Source: Candidatus Zixiibacteriota bacterium (GTDB lineage Bacteria > Zixibacteria > MSB-5A5 > UBA10806). Taken from it: DNA of 34,939 nucleotides. Under the pieces are notes generated by a model. The model was given only the letters and a program-made list of their open reading frames with translations, searched no databases and was not told the origin of the DNA. The position numbers and the translations under genes were made by a program. Below are positions 28,566-34,939 of this stretch, piece after piece. The first letter of the stretch is position 1. Each line of letters begins with the position of its first letter. The stretch covers positions 3,401,508 through 3,436,446 of the forward strand of contig CP070742.1 in the NCBI GenBank assembly GCA_020348065.1. Reading direction: 5' to 3'.

Positions 28566-29149
28566 GATCCCTGCCCCTGTTTTACATTATAGGTTGATAC
28601 CCTGAAGGTAGCCGTAACCGGCTTCTCATCCTTGACGCTTTCAGCCTGGATCATTGCCAATTTCTGAGCCGGCGATTTCAATGAAATGTCATTGAGATTT
28701 ACGATAAACGGGAAATTGGCCACTTTGGCCATGAATTTACCCAGGCCGTGATAGGTGGCTTCCACCTCGACGGAGTAATTATTGGTTTCGTAAAATTCGA
28801 AGGGTGTGGTGCCCAGAGGCGTAACGTCCGTAACAATCGAATTGGTCAGCTGGGCGGCGGCATGAAGCTGGTTGAGGAAGGATTCGTCCTCTTTTCTTTC
28901 CGGAAGCAAAATCTCCACCTTCTTATATTGAATCTGCTTTTCATTGTATTCTTTCTGCAAATCGGAAAGGCCGGCAGCCGTTTCCTGTACATCATGCAGC
29001 TTTTTTAGAAGGGTACCCTTCTGGATTTCCATCTGCGAAATCTTAAGCTGGTAAGGCGAATAAATTTTCGCAAACCAAACATAATAAAGCCCGAGAAATA
29101 CCACGGTAATTATTAAAGTAATTTGAGTTTTGGGGTCTCTCAAATTCAT
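28562..29149 (-). CDS. pilO: Type IV pilus inner-membrane protein PilO
   Basis: 195 residues: one N-terminal transmembrane helix (about 10-27, ITLIITVVFLGLYYVWF), a coiled-coil stretch (LKISQMEIQKGTLLKKLHDV) and a C-terminal ferredoxin-like domain of the PilO type (LLPERKEDESFLNQLHAAAQ, SVEVEATYHGLGKFMAKVAN). With PilN it forms the inner-membrane alignment complex that couples PilM in the cytoplasm to PilP and the secretin. The ATG has GGGAGGGG upstream; the gene overlaps pilP by four bases and is 55 bases after pilN. Confidence 0.9.
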   Translation of the reverse strand: MNLRDPKTQITLIITVVFLGLYYVWFAKIYSPYQLKISQMEIQKGTLLKKLHDVQETAAGLSDLQKEYNEKQIQYKKVEILLPERKEDESFLNQLHAAAQLTNSIVTDVTPLGTTPFEFYETNNYSVEVEATYHGLGKFMAKVANFPFIVNLNDISLKSPAQKLAMIQAESVKDEKPVTATFRVSTYNVKQGQGS

Positions 29150-29204
29150 GATTCCCCTCCCGCATGAATTTTAAACCGGACAAGCCGGCAAGGTTCAAAA
29201 CCGC

Positions 29205-29861
29205 CTAAAATTGTGTTCCTGCGGCGGGAGCAGACTGCGCCGTCTCCATCGTGGCGGCGGGAGGCTCCGACGTCGCAAAATTACACGTTATCTTAAATGA
29301 ATAGGCTTTGGCCTTTTCAGTTTCCTCGAGTTTAATCGATGTCAGCTCTATATCGCGAAACATTTCCGATTTTTTCAATCTTATCAGAAAAGTGGCGAAG
29401 GCGTTGAGCGAAAAAGAATATCCCTCGATGGTGGATTTGGCCGCGACGGGCTGCGCCCCCGGAGTTCCGGGACGAGCGCCGGCCGAGGGATTCTGTTCAA
29501 CGGAGGTAAGCCAAACGTAATCCGGAATCCTGCGAACCAGATCCTCAAGAAGCTTGACCCAGTAATTTCTGTTCTGGTCGAGAACCTGTATCGCCGACAT
29601 CCTCGCCAGGATCTGTGTCTTTTTAAGCGAGATATCTTCAATTTTCTGTATCTCGGCCGAGTACCTGGCAGTCTCATTTTCAGCCTGTAAGATGTCTCTT
29701 TCCAGGCTGTTTAGCTTTCCCGCCTGAAAAACGAGACTATAAACAGCCAGCAAACCGGCGATAACCACCCCGCCGACTATTATGAGGACCATATTTTTAT
29801 CGACGGATATCGCGAACCGCTTGTATTGTAATTCCTTCGGCAGTAAATTAATTTCTATCAT
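29205..29861 (-). CDS. pilN: Type IV pilus inner-membrane protein PilN
   Basis: 218 residues. MIEINLLPKEL is the conserved PilN N-terminal peptide that docks onto PilM. A transmembrane helix follows (about 26-47), then a coiled coil and a ferredoxin-like PilN domain (WVKLLEDLVRRIPDYVWLTS, IEGYSFSLNAFATFLIRLKKSE). It differs from the usual protein by a Pro/Ala/Gly-rich insert (about 126-141) and an Ala/Pro-rich tail. The start overlaps the pilM stop (TAATG) and is preceded by GGAGGG. Confidence 0.92.
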   Translation of the reverse strand: MIEINLLPKELQYKRFAISVDKNMVLIIVGGVVIAGLLAVYSLVFQAGKLNSLERDILQAENETARYSAEIQKIEDISLKKTQILARMSAIQVLDQNRNYWVKLLEDLVRRIPDYVWLTSVEQNPSAGARPGTPGAQPVAAKSTIEGYSFSLNAFATFLIRLKKSEMFRDIELTSIKLEETEKAKAYSFKITCNFATSEPPAATMETAQSAPAAGTQF

Positions 29862-30910
29862 TACACCCTCCGGGCCGCCAGTCCCATGGGCACCGCCAGA
29901 AGCGGCGCTACCTTCTCGGGTTGATTTTCAAAAAACAGATCGGGGTCATATTCTATATTTCTCAAAGGATTGAAAATTTCAACCGGTATGGCGAGTTTAT
30001 TTTGCATGAGCTCCGGCAGATAGGGCACCAGGGCGCCTCCGCCCGAAAGCACAATCCAGTCAAGCGTCTCAGAGCCCGACGAGCTCTTAAAATAGGAAAT
30101 CGCGACCTCGATCCCGGCCATCAGTTCCTCGAATGTGGTCGCCACGGTCGCCTTAAACATGTCCTGGTCGATGGAACTGTCCATCTCCCCTTTTATGGCC
30201 TTGGCCGTCAACTCCTGGTTCAGACGGAATTCCCGGCCGACCGCTTCCGAGATCAACCGTATGCCGTTGGAAACATCTCTGGTAGAATGATAAAGACCGT
30301 CTTTCAGAAATACAACATTGGTATTTTCAAATCCTATGTTAATCAACGCCGTTACCTTCGACGGGTCGATATCATAGTTAATTTCGTAGGCGTTTAAAAC
30401 CGCGAAGGCGTCGGTATCCACCAGGACCGGCTTCAAACCGGCATCGAAAACGAGGTCCAGGATATTTTTCAGAAACTCGTTTCTGGCGGCCACCAGGAGT
30501 ATCTCCATCTTTCCCGCTTCGTCATCGTACTTGATGACATGATAATCCATAGTGACGTCTTCGACATCGAATGGACTTCGTTGCTCGGCCTCGAACAGTA
30601 TAGCCTGTTCGGCCTCGGCTCCGGTTTTCTTGTCCATGAGGAATTTGTCGGTGATAACTCCGTGACCCGCTATAGAAATAACCACTTCTTTAATCTTGGG
30701 ATCGGTCTGATCTACGAGGTTCTGGATGTCGAAAATGACAGCGTCGCGATCTTTGATCTCGTCAGTCGTTATCGCTCCGAAGGGAAGCTCTTTTATGCCC
30801 ATAGCCTTTAACAGATAGCCCCCGGGTTTGGCCTGAAGTTTTAAAAGCTTAATGGAACTCGAACCGATATCCAATCCAACAGCTAATTTAGATTTTTTTA
30901 ATGCGCTCAT
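29861..30910 (-). CDS. pilM: Type IV pilus actin-like ATPase PilM
   Basis: 349 residues from ATG 30910; an in-frame TTG at 30925 is inside the GGGGG that probably serves as ribosome binding site. Actin-like ATPase motifs: VGLDIGSSSIKLLKL (phosphate 1), VVISIAGHGVITDKF, ALINIGFENTNVVFLKDG (phosphate 2) and DWIVLSGGGALVPYLPEL (adenosine). It forms the cytoplasmic ring that holds PilN and supports pilus assembly. It is first in the pilMNOPQ operon behind a good sigma-70-like promoter (30965-30993). The assembly motors PilB and PilT are not in the window. Confidence 0.93.
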   Translation of the reverse strand: MSALKKSKLAVGLDIGSSSIKLLKLQAKPGGYLLKAMGIKELPFGAITTDEIKDRDAVIFDIQNLVDQTDPKIKEVVISIAGHGVITDKFLMDKKTGAEAEQAILFEAEQRSPFDVEDVTMDYHVIKYDDEAGKMEILLVAARNEFLKNILDLVFDAGLKPVLVDTDAFAVLNAYEINYDIDPSKVTALINIGFENTNVVFLKDGLYHSTRDVSNGIRLISEAVGREFRLNQELTAKAIKGEMDSSIDQDMFKATVATTFEELMAGIEVAISYFKSSSGSETLDWIVLSGGGALVPYLPELMQNKLAIPVEIFNPLRNIEYDPDLFFENQPEKVAPLLAVPMGLAARRV

Positions 30911-30964
30911 TCCGGGATCCCCCAAAGTTATTGGACCATTTGAGTCTGCAAACTCCTGCGTTAC

Positions 30965-30993
30965 TATTTATCGGCTTTGATCGCCGATGTCAA
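30965..30993 (-). promoter_or_regulatory. Sigma-70-like promoter of the pilMNOPQ operon
   Basis: Minus strand: TTGACA (30993-30988), a 17-base spacer, TAAATA (30970-30965). The leader would be about 48 bases. There is no second copy and no recognisable operator; the 90 bases toward the pilin gene are AT-rich with no hairpin. Confidence 0.6.
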
Positions 30994-31093
30994 CAAATAT
31001 TTACGAGCACAACTTAATTATCGACCTAAATTGAGTAAAATTAACAGAATAATGATAAAAAATAATTACGTTTTATTCGAGGTATAATGCAGA

Positions 31094-31597
31094 CTATTGC
31101 AACTTGGACCTGCCGGTGGACGCTAATATGGATACTGTATACAACGCTCCACCACCCGTGAGATCGAAAGTAAAGTTTCCTGACTGGGATGCCCTGCCGG
31201 TGGATATGAATACCACAACGTCGCCGGTAAAGGACGAATTCGCAGCTAATTCAGGAGAAAATGACACGGGGCCGGAAACCAGAGAATCACCGTTGTCATA
31301 ACTCATCAAATCGGGACTGGATATATCTTTGAAAAGCAGATACTGTCGACCTGCCGTATCCAAGTATACTCCATACTGCGCGCCATCGGAGATGGCTTTA
31401 CTTCGGGCCAATCTTATCATATTAAGGATATTCCTGGCTTCGGTTCTGGCCTTAAGCCTGGGGGCAGCGGAAAAAAAGGTCGGCGCCGCCAGCGCCGCGA
31501 CGATTCCTATTATAACGACGATAATCATCATTTCAAGCATAGTAAAACCGCGTTCGGGACGGCGATTTCCGAATCTATGTTTTAGAATTTTAATCAT
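31094..31597 (-). CDS. GspH/FimT-type prepilin
   Basis: 167 residues. The class III leader RRPERG is cut before FTMLEMMIIVVIIGIVAALAAP, the hydrophobic helix with Glu5 of the mature protein. The remainder has the GspH/FimT beta domain: EARNILNMIRLARSKAISDGAQYGVYLD, an aspect of these minor pseudopilins. It is probably a tip or initiation subunit of the pilus. It stands 86 bases after the other pilin-like gene on the same strand and is likely co-transcribed from the sigma-54 promoter at 32226-32241. Purine-rich AAGGATAGGA precedes the ATG. Confidence 0.85.
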   Translation of the reverse strand: MIKILKHRFGNRRPERGFTMLEMMIIVVIIGIVAALAAPTFFSAAPRLKARTEARNILNMIRLARSKAISDGAQYGVYLDTAGRQYLLFKDISSPDLMSYDNGDSLVSGPVSFSPELAANSSFTGDVVVFISTGRASQSGNFTFDLTGGGALYTVSILASTGRSKLQ

Positions 31598-31683
31598 CTC
31601 TTATCCTATCCTTTACCGTTAAATCCCAATCCTTATCCTTATCGGAAAAACCAAACCATTATTAATACGTCGCGAATAATACT

Positions 31684-32193
31684 CTATAGTAAGCTTCTCA
31701 TCTCCGCCACCGTCGAATAACTCTTCGACAGGGTCTCGATTTTGTCCTGATCGTTTTCCTTCATTGATATGGTCGCGATAGTTACCTCTATCTTTTTGCC
31801 GTCCGCGCTGGTAGCGTTAAGGGAACTGACATTCTCGGCGATGATTTTATCGGTATTCTCGATCTTTTTTACCAGGTTTTTATCTTTATCCACATAAAAC
31901 TCGAAACAAACGTCGTTATGCCAGATTATCAGCTTATCGCTTTCTTTGCCTTTGACTATGTTCAAAGGTTTTTTGCCTTTTTCGAGATTATATCCCGCCA
32001 GCCCGATATGGTATTTTATATCCTCGAGCGCCATCTTTACGGAGTTTTCAGCCGTGCCTCCACGATAACCGTCATAGCTCGCCTCCAACCTGCTTACCTG
32101 GAGGTTCCATAAAGCGGTGGAGATAACCGATATCATCACGACTACTAACAGAATTTGAATCAGGGAAAATCCTTTTTGGTTCGTCTTTCTCAT
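31684..32193 (-). CDS. Prepilin-like minor pilin with Gln at mature position 5
   Basis: 169 residues. The leader MRKTNQKG is cut before FSLIQILLVVVMISVISTALW. The fifth mature residue is Gln instead of the near-universal Glu; loss of this charge is known among minor tip pseudopilins such as GspK. The rest is beta-rich with SRLEASYDGYRGGTAENSVK and VSSLNATSADGKKIEVTIATI, like the PilW/PilX type. The ATG has GGAGGAAT directly before it. A close match to the sigma-54 consensus lies 33 bases upstream and would place the transcript start just before the ribosome binding site. Confidence 0.75.
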   Translation of the reverse strand: MRKTNQKGFSLIQILLVVVMISVISTALWNLQVSRLEASYDGYRGGTAENSVKMALEDIKYHIGLAGYNLEKGKKPLNIVKGKESDKLIIWHNDVCFEFYVDKDKNLVKKIENTDKIIAENVSSLNATSADGKKIEVTIATISMKENDQDKIETLSKSYSTVAEMRSLL

Positions 32194-32225
32194 TATTCCT
32201 CCGGCATTAAGCCGCTTTCTATATA

Positions 32226-32241
32226 TGCAACACGCGTGCCT
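32226..32241 (-). promoter_or_regulatory. Near-consensus sigma-54 promoter for the pilin-like genes
   Basis: The minus strand reads AGGCACGCGTGTTGCA. Against TGGCACG-N4-TTGCW it differs only at the first base; the essential GG and GC are in exact spacing. The predicted transcript start is near 32215, 22 bases before ATG 32193 and just ahead of GGAGGAAT. Sigma-54 promoters need an NtrC-type activator such as the one at 3581-4921 or a PilR relative elsewhere. No enhancer-like dyad was found nearby. Confidence 0.75.
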
Positions 32242-32428
32242 TCCGGGTTGGGTTTTAATAACCGCCTTATTAGCAATGGATTAGCGATCCGGAGGATATG
32301 GGGAGTCGACAACAATTTCGCCGAAATAATCGATTTGATTCCAAAAGTATGGTGAGATTCCCATAGTGGTTTCATTAGTTAGGCGCGGGATGACACCACG
32401 TTAACCTCGGAAGAAGTGAATTCGGGTA

Positions 32429-32457
32429 TTGACAATTGTTTAGATATAAAATATATT
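32429..32457 (+). promoter_or_regulatory. Sigma-70-like promoter of the IPTL peptidase gene
   Basis: TTGACA (32429-32434), a 17-base spacer and TATATT (32452-32457), plus strand, in an AT-rich stretch. The leader would be about 128 bases and ends in AAGGA six bases before ATG 32592. Apart from this promoter and the divergent sigma-54 promoter, the gap 32194-32591 shows no gene or structured element. Confidence 0.65.
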
Positions 32458-32591
32458 ATTTTCGTCTTTAACGATCCATTATTCCTGTCGGATGGCATTC
32501 AGGATAGGATTGTATTGAAGAAGATTTATATTTGAGCTTCATTAATCGAACCGTAAAGCAAATTTCCCAGTGACTTTCAGAAGGAAAGAAA

Positions 32592-33536
32592 ATGCGAAGC
32601 AATTTATCCACGATTTGCCTGTTGGCGATCATCCTGAGTCTTGTCTTATTTTATGGCGAATCGGTTTTCGCGCAGCAGAGCACTACGGGGCCCGTTCCAC
32701 CGATCGGTATAGAGCGTGGAATTAAGCCGCCCACACGTCTGCAGACAACCATACCAAACGTGCCGTCTTATATCTGGCATCATGGCTGTGGCCCTACCGC
32801 CCTGGGAATGGTGGTGGGATATTGGGACGGCAACGGTTATCCTAACCTTGTGCCGGGAGACGCGTCGAGCCAAACCGCGGCGGTTGATGCGATGATTGCC
32901 GACGATAGCGGAAATCCGAATTGTTCTCTTCCTGATGGAGACCATTTTCAGGATTACTCCTGCCCTATAGACACTTTCCCTAATATGAAAACCGATAGAT
33001 CGGTAACCGGGGGCGCGCATACCAGCGATTGCGTGGCCGATTTTATGGAAACCTCGTGGAGCTCTGTAAGTAACTATTATGGGTGGAGTTGGTTCTCCGA
33101 TGTCGCTCCATCCTTCATAAATTATGTCAATTTTACTGATCCTACTTATGGACCCGCTGCGACCGGCCATCGCTACCATCAGTTTACTTTTGCCAATTAT
33201 ATGGCCGAGATCGATGCCGGCCGGCCGGTCGTCCTGCTGGTTGACACCGACGGGGACGGCGACACCGATCATTTCGTCACAGGCATCGGATACGACAACT
33301 CTACAAATGAGTATGGCATCTATAACACCTGGGATCATTCCATTCATTGGTTTTCATGGAGATATACAGGAAATTTTTGGGGAATCTACGGAGTTATAAC
33401 ATTTTCCCTGGAGCCTGGTGCCATCCCTACGCTCTCCGAATGGGGCATGCTGATCATGGCGCTGTTGCTGCTGGCCGCCGGGACGGTAGGCGCTATCAGG
33501 AAACGGACAATAGTCGCGGCGGCTAAATCCCGATAG
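32592..33536 (+). CDS. IPTL-CTERM surface protein with C39/papain-like peptidase domain
   Basis: 314 residues. A signal peptide (about 1-27, ending VFAQ) precedes a cysteine-peptidase-like domain: HHGCGPTALGMVVGYW with Cys66, DHFVTGIGYD with His227 and YNTWD with Asn245 or Asp248, the order of C39 and other papain-like enzymes. Just before the His is DTDGDGDTD (218-226), which fits the DxDxDGxxD calcium loop. IPTLSEWGMLIMALLLLAAG (278-297) then RKR form the IPTL-CTERM tail: a short motif, a helix and a basic end, for anchoring or sorting. A promoter and a good ribosome binding site precede it. The substrate is unknown; it may process or degrade surface proteins. Confidence 0.75.
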   Translation: MRSNLSTICLLAIILSLVLFYGESVFAQQSTTGPVPPIGIERGIKPPTRLQTTIPNVPSYIWHHGCGPTALGMVVGYWDGNGYPNLVPGDASSQTAAVDAMIADDSGNPNCSLPDGDHFQDYSCPIDTFPNMKTDRSVTGGAHTSDCVADFMETSWSSVSNYYGWSWFSDVAPSFINYVNFTDPTYGPAATGHRYHQFTFANYMAEIDAGRPVVLLVDTDGDGDTDHFVTGIGYDNSTNEYGIYNTWDHSIHWFSWRYTGNFWGIYGVITFSLEPGAIPTLSEWGMLIMALLLLAAGTVGAIRKRTIVAAAKSR

Positions 33537-33572
33537 CACCATAAATAAAAGAGGGAATTTTTAAAATAAATA

Positions 33573-33601
33573 TTGACATATATATTAACGGCGAATACTT
33601 T
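33573..33601 (+). promoter_or_regulatory. Promoter candidate for the propeller gene
   Basis: TTGACA (33573-33578), a 17-base spacer and TACTTT (33596-33601). The leader of about 60 bases ends in AAGGAGG before ATG 33671, a near-perfect Shine-Dalgarno. No terminator is visible between the peptidase stop at 33536 and this site, so read-through is also possible. Confidence 0.4.
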
Positions 33602-33670
33602 GCCGGTGATTGGAGCTACTTCTCTGGGTCCACATTAAAATGATGATTTTATTTATTTAAGGAGGTCGCC

Positions 33671-34879
33671 ATGAGGTTTGTTAAATCATTTACGATTTGG
33701 CCTTTAATATTGGCAGTTATCGGTCCGTTCGAAAAATACATTAATGTTAATGGTTTCGCCGCCTTCGCTGATAATTCTTGGATCATTGAAACCGTGGATA
33801 GCACTTTCGGCATATCAACATGCGGAGAGTATTCATCTTTAGCCCTTGGCGATAATGATAATCCGCACATCAGTTATTACGCTTTTAACGGAGACGGTGG
33901 TTTGTATTATGCCCGCAATGACGGCACCTTGTGGCATATTGAATTTGTTTACGATACCCATGGTACGACCGTTACCTCTTTAGCCGTAGACAGCGATAAT
34001 AATCCGCATATCAGCTTTTTTGATCCCGATTACATGATAAAATACGCTTATCATTCAACTATCTGGCATATCGATACGATATATAGCGCTGGCGATGCCG
34101 GACTAAAGAATTCTATCGCGCTGGATAACTTTAATAATCCCCATGTCAGTTTTGTAAAAGATATTCCCTTTGATAATGATAGCTTAATGTATGCTTATTA
34201 TGACAGCATGTGGAATATCCAGTCAGTCGATTATCCATGTTTCGGCAGTGATCAAAGCTCCATTGCCTTGGATTCAAATAACAATCCCCATATCAGCTAT
34301 TTTAACGGTCCCAGCAGCGATTTGAAGTATGCTTATTACGATGGCACCTGGAATATTCAAACAATAGACTACTGCGGTTCCCAGACTACTTGCATAGTCC
34401 TTGATGATAATGATCATCCGCATATCAGTTACTATGACGGTTCAAATAACGATCTTCGCTATGCCTATTATGATGGCTTCTGGCATATCCAGACAGTAGA
34501 TACCTCCGGAGACGTGGGTCAATATAATTCCATTGCCCTTGACAGTTATAATAATATACATATTAGCTACTATGATGCCGGGAGCTTCGATCTCAAATAT
34601 GCGTTTTATAACGGCAACTGGCATATTGAGACCATCGATACATCCGGTCATGTTGGTCGCTTTAGTTCCATTGAGATAGATGATAATGATAAACCGCGTA
34701 TCAGTTATGCTTTCTTTAGCCTAGATATAGACAAATTAAAGTATGCCTATAAAATCGACGAAACGATCCCCACTCTTTCTGAATGGGGCATGCTGATAAT
34801 GGGGCTGTTATTGCTGGCGGTCGGGACGATAGCGATCATTAGAAAACGAAAAACGGTTGTGCAAAGACAGATTCGATAA
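33671..34879 (+). CDS. IPTL-CTERM surface protein, predicted seven-bladed beta-propeller
   Basis: 402 residues. After a hydrophobic N-terminus (SFTIWPLILAVIG, a plausible if weak signal peptide) come seven repeats, each starting with a W-x-I-x-x-V/I pattern at Trp37, 88, 132, 181, 227, 271 and 317 (spacing 44-51). A typical unit reads WHIQTVDTSG, then YNSIALDSYNN, HISYYD and DLKYAFYNG, i.e. four short strands per unit. Seven such units of about 46 residues suggest a closed beta-propeller, perhaps sugar- or protein-binding. The tail IPTLSEWGMLIMGLLLLAVG plus RKRK nearly equals that of the peptidase before it. The ribosome binding site is near-perfect. The ligand is unknown. Confidence 0.7.
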   Translation: MRFVKSFTIWPLILAVIGPFEKYINVNGFAAFADNSWIIETVDSTFGISTCGEYSSLALGDNDNPHISYYAFNGDGGLYYARNDGTLWHIEFVYDTHGTTVTSLAVDSDNNPHISFFDPDYMIKYAYHSTIWHIDTIYSAGDAGLKNSIALDNFNNPHVSFVKDIPFDNDSLMYAYYDSMWNIQSVDYPCFGSDQSSIALDSNNNPHISYFNGPSSDLKYAYYDGTWNIQTIDYCGSQTTCIVLDDNDHPHISYYDGSNNDLRYAYYDGFWHIQTVDTSGDVGQYNSIALDSYNNIHISYYDAGSFDLKYAFYNGNWHIETIDTSGHVGRFSSIEIDDNDKPRISYAFFSLDIDKLKYAYKIDETIPTLSEWGMLIMGLLLLAVGTIAIIRKRKTVVQRQIR

Positions 34880-34939
34880 TTATTGCTATACGATATTACA
34901 GAGATAACCGCGATTGTGGATATGCCAAACCTCGCCCCG
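34880..34939. other. Window end, no feature
   Basis: The last 60 bases after the propeller gene contain no reading frame, hairpin or T-run that I can support. Confidence 0.6.

Follow-up and report, generated by a model that had tools for sequence, protein, structure and literature searches.

The window analysed here, a 34,939-nucleotide stretch of Candidatus Zixiibacteriota DNA, carries towards its end two adjacent genes (Table 1) that lie on the same strand, separated by a 134 bp gap with no overlap, and that both encode proteins ending in an IPTL-CTERM tail (...IPTLSEWGMLIMALLLLAAGTVGAIRKRTIVAAAKSR for the C39 protein and ...IPTLSEWGMLIMGLLLLAVGTIAIIRKRKTVVQRQIR for the propeller protein). 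The C39 and propeller tails scored 30.8 and 27.4 bits, respectively, with TIGR04174 (curated cut-off 20.5) and 28.9 and 24.9 bits with PF18203 (curated cut-off 20.8); with NF033207, a family named by NCBIfam as cut by exosortase H (XrtH) and whose tail model overlaps these tags, both scored below cut-off. The first-pass annotation had described adjacent IPTL-CTERM genes at 32592-34879, and its coordinates proved exact. Both tags are tripartite in sequence and in the AlphaFold2 models, with a motif, a transmembrane helix (residues 281-312 of the C39 model and 369-401 of the propeller model) and a basic cluster. The N-termini, read by eye only, are hydrophobic and end in VFA and AAFA, respectively. 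The window closes at a 100-N scaffold gap (L016:4448-4547), 60 bp past the propeller gene and just beyond position 34939, so that the sequence downstream of the pair is uncertain.

Table 1 Features of the locus (window coordinates).
Feature	Position	Strand	Evidence
Conserved flank: pilMNO genes, GspH-like pseudopilin, second pilin-like gene	28671..32369		82.5% identity; pil genes by Pfam
C39-like cysteine peptidase homologue with IPTL-CTERM tag, 314 aa	32592..33536	+	ORF; PF13529 38.8 bits; 74% orthologue
Probable N-terminal signal peptide, residues 1-27	32592..32672	+	Translation by eye; AF2 helix 5-21
Cys66 codon, putative catalytic, HGCGPTA motif	32787..32789	+	Invariant, 13 aligned sequences
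His227 codon, putative catalytic, TDHF motif	33270..33272	+	Invariant, 13 aligned sequences
IPTL-CTERM tag of C39 protein: IPTLSEWG motif, hydrophobic helix, RKR	33423..33506	+	TIGR04174 30.8 bits, PF18203 28.9 bits
Seven-bladed beta-propeller protein with IPTL-CTERM tag, 402 aa	33671..34879	+	ORF; AF2 model, 28 strands; 2 tagged paralogues
Propeller domain, residues 37-361, 7 blades x 4 strands	33779..34753	+	AF2; best PDB folds PLL/PHL lectins
IPTL-CTERM tag of propeller protein	34766..34849	+	TIGR04174 27.4 bits, PF18203 24.9 bits

The product of the first open reading frame matched Peptidase_C39_2 (PF13529) at 38.8 bits (cut-off 24), in agreement with the earlier peptidase call. When 13 sequences drawn from several phyla were aligned, Cys66 and His227 proved invariant, and position 245 was occupied by N or D throughout. 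The AlphaFold2 model is of low to modest confidence (pLDDT 69.5), and its fold matches were weak, most of them to papain-like enzymes (cathepsins, staphopain and a C39-like domain); a search of PDB sequences with the C39 profile returned dockerin matches only, stemming from the tails of relatives. These results suggest that the ectodomain is a papain-like C39-type peptidase, which would be expected to act by proteolysis.

The second protein shows seven sequence repeats in its ectodomain, and its AlphaFold2 model (mean pLDDT 80.5) places 28 strands within residues 37-361, with the tag helix directly after, confirming the seven-bladed propeller named in the first-pass annotation. The closest solved folds were the seven-bladed PLL/PHL lectins (top Foldseek matches, E ~1e-14, TM ~0.6) and the glycoside hydrolase BT3686; no PDB chain sequence matched at E ≤ 0.01. 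The genome encodes two paralogues of the propeller, with 65% and 46% identity, each of them IPTL-tagged.

We then collected the IPTL proteins of the host genome (3.74 Mb, single scaffold), as had been proposed earlier, and obtained 12 matches over cut-off on unrelated ectodomains (C39, propellers, subtilase, FG-GAP and DUF7901), which bears out the view of the tail as a sorting tag common to unrelated ectodomains. The two tails are indeed much more alike than chance would give, yet this likeness characterises the tag family as a whole and is not specific to the pair, since among the pairs formed by 11 compared tags the protein identity of 23/30 equals the genome median (mean 22.5) and 51% of tag pairs were as similar as, or more similar than, the C39/propeller pair. 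Orphan IPTL tails were also observed in very short open frames (G000:C1:456776-456883, G000:C1:1020535-1020633 and G001:C1:3722027-3722125) of 54-56 aa, or of 34 aa with an internal TAG; they are possibly gene remnants or frameshifts. No PEP-CTERM-like DNA pattern was found in the window.

The genome was investigated for a processing enzyme with the NCBIfam families for exosortase H (TIGR04177, cut-off 86 bits) and the exosortase H-associated membrane protein (NF041730, cut-off 35 bits). A single XrtH was identified (G000:C1:462756-463211; 118.5 bits, or 118.7 as a protein), 174 aa in length, with the Cys, Arg and His conserved by eye in the DGCNG, NLIRV and HVYVW motifs. The gene just downstream of it gave a sub-threshold NF041730 match (28 bits), and an IPTL protein lies 675 bp away; XrtH itself is distant from the window on the scaffold (0.46 Mb vs 3.43 Mb). 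Near XrtH we also noticed, by eye only, a dockerin-like small protein (L014:4883-5206). The first-pass annotation had advised a search for an exosortase co-occurring with the tags, which proved sound and led to the answer, and its statement that the enzyme for IPTL-CTERM is not established needs amending, because NCBIfam exosortase H is a named candidate and is encoded in this genome; the literature searched yielded no biochemical demonstration that XrtH cleaves the tag. As far as we found, the handling of IPTL-CTERM by XrtH rests on family annotation and comparative genomics.

Across 133 Zixibacteria genomes, XrtH-family matches were present in 49, IPTL tags in 19 and both in 18, which corresponds to an XrtH match in 18 of 19 genomes with IPTL tags vs 31 of 114 genomes without them (Fisher p = 2e-8, phylogeny ignored). 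Those 31 genomes carry an XrtH-family match with no IPTL tag detected, and a single genome (G114, 86% complete) carries an IPTL tag with no XrtH detected. In 14 of the 18 genomes having both, XrtH and an IPTL tag are separated by no more than 2.5 kb. In Methylomirabilis lanthanidiphila, an IPTL-CTERM protein was identified as the S-layer protein by immunogold labelling; its C-terminal tail peptides were undetected, which the authors did not read as cleavage (PMC8671808). In the same-genus genome (CP070813, Candidatus Zixiibacteriota), XrtH is split by a ~3-kb inversion (G001 XrtH region, L084:7140-11090). We rejected a phase-variable inversion as its origin; since both breakpoints coincide with 100-N gaps, the split is likely a scaffolding artefact caused by a wrongly oriented contig.

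The first-pass annotation had read the pair as a surface module with one binding and one cutting member; in such a dedicated module, the lectin-like propeller would recognise a glycan or protein that the C39-type peptidase would cut. Their adjacency on one strand, their common tag, the resemblance of the propeller model to sugar-binding seven-bladed PLL/PHL lectins and the retention of the putative catalytic Cys and His in the peptidase would all be consistent with such a module, but synteny and phylum searches showed that the genes are not a conserved neighbour pair. In the same-genus genome, the C39 orthologue (74% identity) is located ~1.8 Mb away with no propeller beside it, inside its own contig and surrounded by FG-GAP/dockerin and other genes; a search of that genome for a propeller orthologue of full length was negative. 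Within the phylum, the C39 domain occurs in 24 genomes and any propeller match in 6; only 4 of the 24 have both, with the two adjacent in the window genome only and far apart in the other three. Furthermore, the 65% paralogue of the propeller adjoins a DUF7901 IPTL protein instead, and the intergenic spacing, with no overlap, also speaks against a dedicated unit. The annotation had itself named neighbours that are not conserved together as grounds for abandoning the module, and this is what both searches returned; we rejected a conserved binder-cutter pair on this basis, and consider the module improbable.

A recent duplication at this locus, or gene conversion from one neighbour to the other, would account for similar tails on adjacent genes; however, the tag DNA of the pair is identical at 68/90 positions, a value equalled or exceeded by 29% of the pairs among the 11 tags, several of which are closer (up to 75/90), and this genome-wide comparison led us to reject an origin that we regard as extremely unlikely. 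Besides XrtH, a second exosortase of the EpsH/XrtA type is encoded in the genome together with an EpsI partner (373557-373841; L148:878-2364, G000:C1 ~373 kb), and this enzyme might in principle process the IPTL tags as well. A gene resembling an AMP-binding enzyme lies near this second exosortase. It is very unlikely that the EpsH/XrtA-type enzyme, and not XrtH, reads the IPTL tags, given that XrtH adjoins an IPTL gene in 14 of the 18 genomes with both, that the tail model of the XrtH-cut family NF033207 overlaps these tags, albeit below its cut-off for the pair, and that EpsH-type exosortases have been assigned PEP-CTERM as substrate (PMC3237569).

We therefore conclude, with high confidence, that the C39 and propeller proteins belong, each independently, to the cargo of the known exosortase H/IPTL-CTERM sorting system. 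They represent an ordinary case of that system, because at least ten further tagged places exist in the genome, the predicted enzyme is encoded and the genes are not a conserved pair; the proximity of the two would follow from a tendency of IPTL genes to cluster in the genome, not from their forming one machine. An N-terminal signal sequence would direct the export of each protein, and the C-terminal helix of the tag would retain it in the inner membrane, with the RKR cluster remaining cytoplasmic. XrtH, a predicted multi-pass membrane Cys/Arg/His protease, would then cut at the IPTLxxWG motif, after which the ectodomain would come to lie on the outer surface, where it may be attached to a new anchor. 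There, the papain-like C39-type peptidase and the lectin-like propeller would act separately. Whereas the tags, the XrtH gene, their co-occurrence and adjacency, the predicted folds of the ectodomains and the absence of conserved pairing are results of this analysis, we infer the export, cleavage and anchoring, as well as the enzymatic activity. The locus offers a clean, checkable exosortase H/IPTL-CTERM pairing in Zixibacteria in which the unit is the tag and not the gene pair, and it leaves the knowledge of such sorting systems unchanged.

The relatives of the C39 protein carry different C-termini: two have dockerin-type C-terminal domains (L099 and L101), with a third dockerin-type domain just under cut-off (L107), one has a T9SS type A tail (L108) in a genome where no XrtH was found, and one, from a Phycisphaerales genome (L105), has an IPTV tail variant together with an XrtH match that, at 85.3 bits, narrowly misses the cut-off of 86. 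Since these relatives end in dockerin, T9SS or IPTV tails, the ectodomain is conserved across different C-terminal address tags, and its occurrence with IPTL, dockerin or T9SS-type C-termini supports the tail as a modular address label; homologous ectodomains with swapped tags have already been described for other CTERM systems (PMC3237569). Another relative (L141, in G090) ends in TVPVSSLTPYGLIILISLIPACAARTYRRRK, and its genome bears XrtH; this tail looks like an undetected sorting-tag variant. Close to the pair, inspection by eye alone pointed to a T9SS type A-like tail at the C-terminus of another protein (L016:6631-7875), and several C-terminal addressing systems may coexist in the genome.

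Upstream of the pair, window positions 28671-32369 are collinear with L112:1-3701 of the same-genus genome (82.5% identical), and the IPTL slot sits just past this conserved pilMNO/pilin flank. The orthologous slot in the same-genus genome (window 28671-34879 vs L112:1-6201) holds a 782-aa DUF7948/SBBP protein, also IPTL-tagged. It is conceivable, though we consider it rather unlikely, that the slot beyond the pilM-pilin operon keeps exosortase-H cargo while swapping which cargo it holds; IPTL genes might then be interchangeable surface-display cassettes, perhaps helped by conserved tag-coding DNA.

Compared with known systems, the pair agrees with IPTL-CTERM (TIGR04174/PF18203) in its IPTLSEWG motif, hydrophobic helix, basic terminus, probable N-terminal signal sequence (read by eye) and the many unrelated ectodomains per genome, and differs from it in nothing, with both tags exceeding the curated cut-offs. 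The match to exosortase H (TIGR04177) and its associated membrane protein (NF041730) comprises one XrtH over cut-off, the Cys/Arg/His residues, IPTL cargo nearby and the associated protein just downstream, the last below its own cut-off; the differences are the remoteness of XrtH from the window and the second, EpsH-type exosortase in the host genome. The peptidase resembles Peptidase_C39_2 and papain-like enzymes in its Pfam match over cut-off, invariant Cys66/His227 and weak papain-like fold matches, whereas it has no conserved oxyanion Gln just upstream of the Cys, position -3 being H, Q, R, Y or K. The propeller has seven blades of four strands, as do the Photorhabdus PLL/PHL lectins that gave the top Foldseek matches to its model, but sequence homology to these lectins was not found: identity in the structural alignment was as low as 9-12%, and the search of PDB sequences gave no match. 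PEP-CTERM/EpsH, GlyGly-CTERM/rhombosortase and MYXO-CTERM/myxosortase are similarly built on a tripartite tag and a many-to-one pairing with a membrane protease (PMC3237569, PMC11980579), and they differ from IPTL in their motif and in the subfamily or family of their enzyme.
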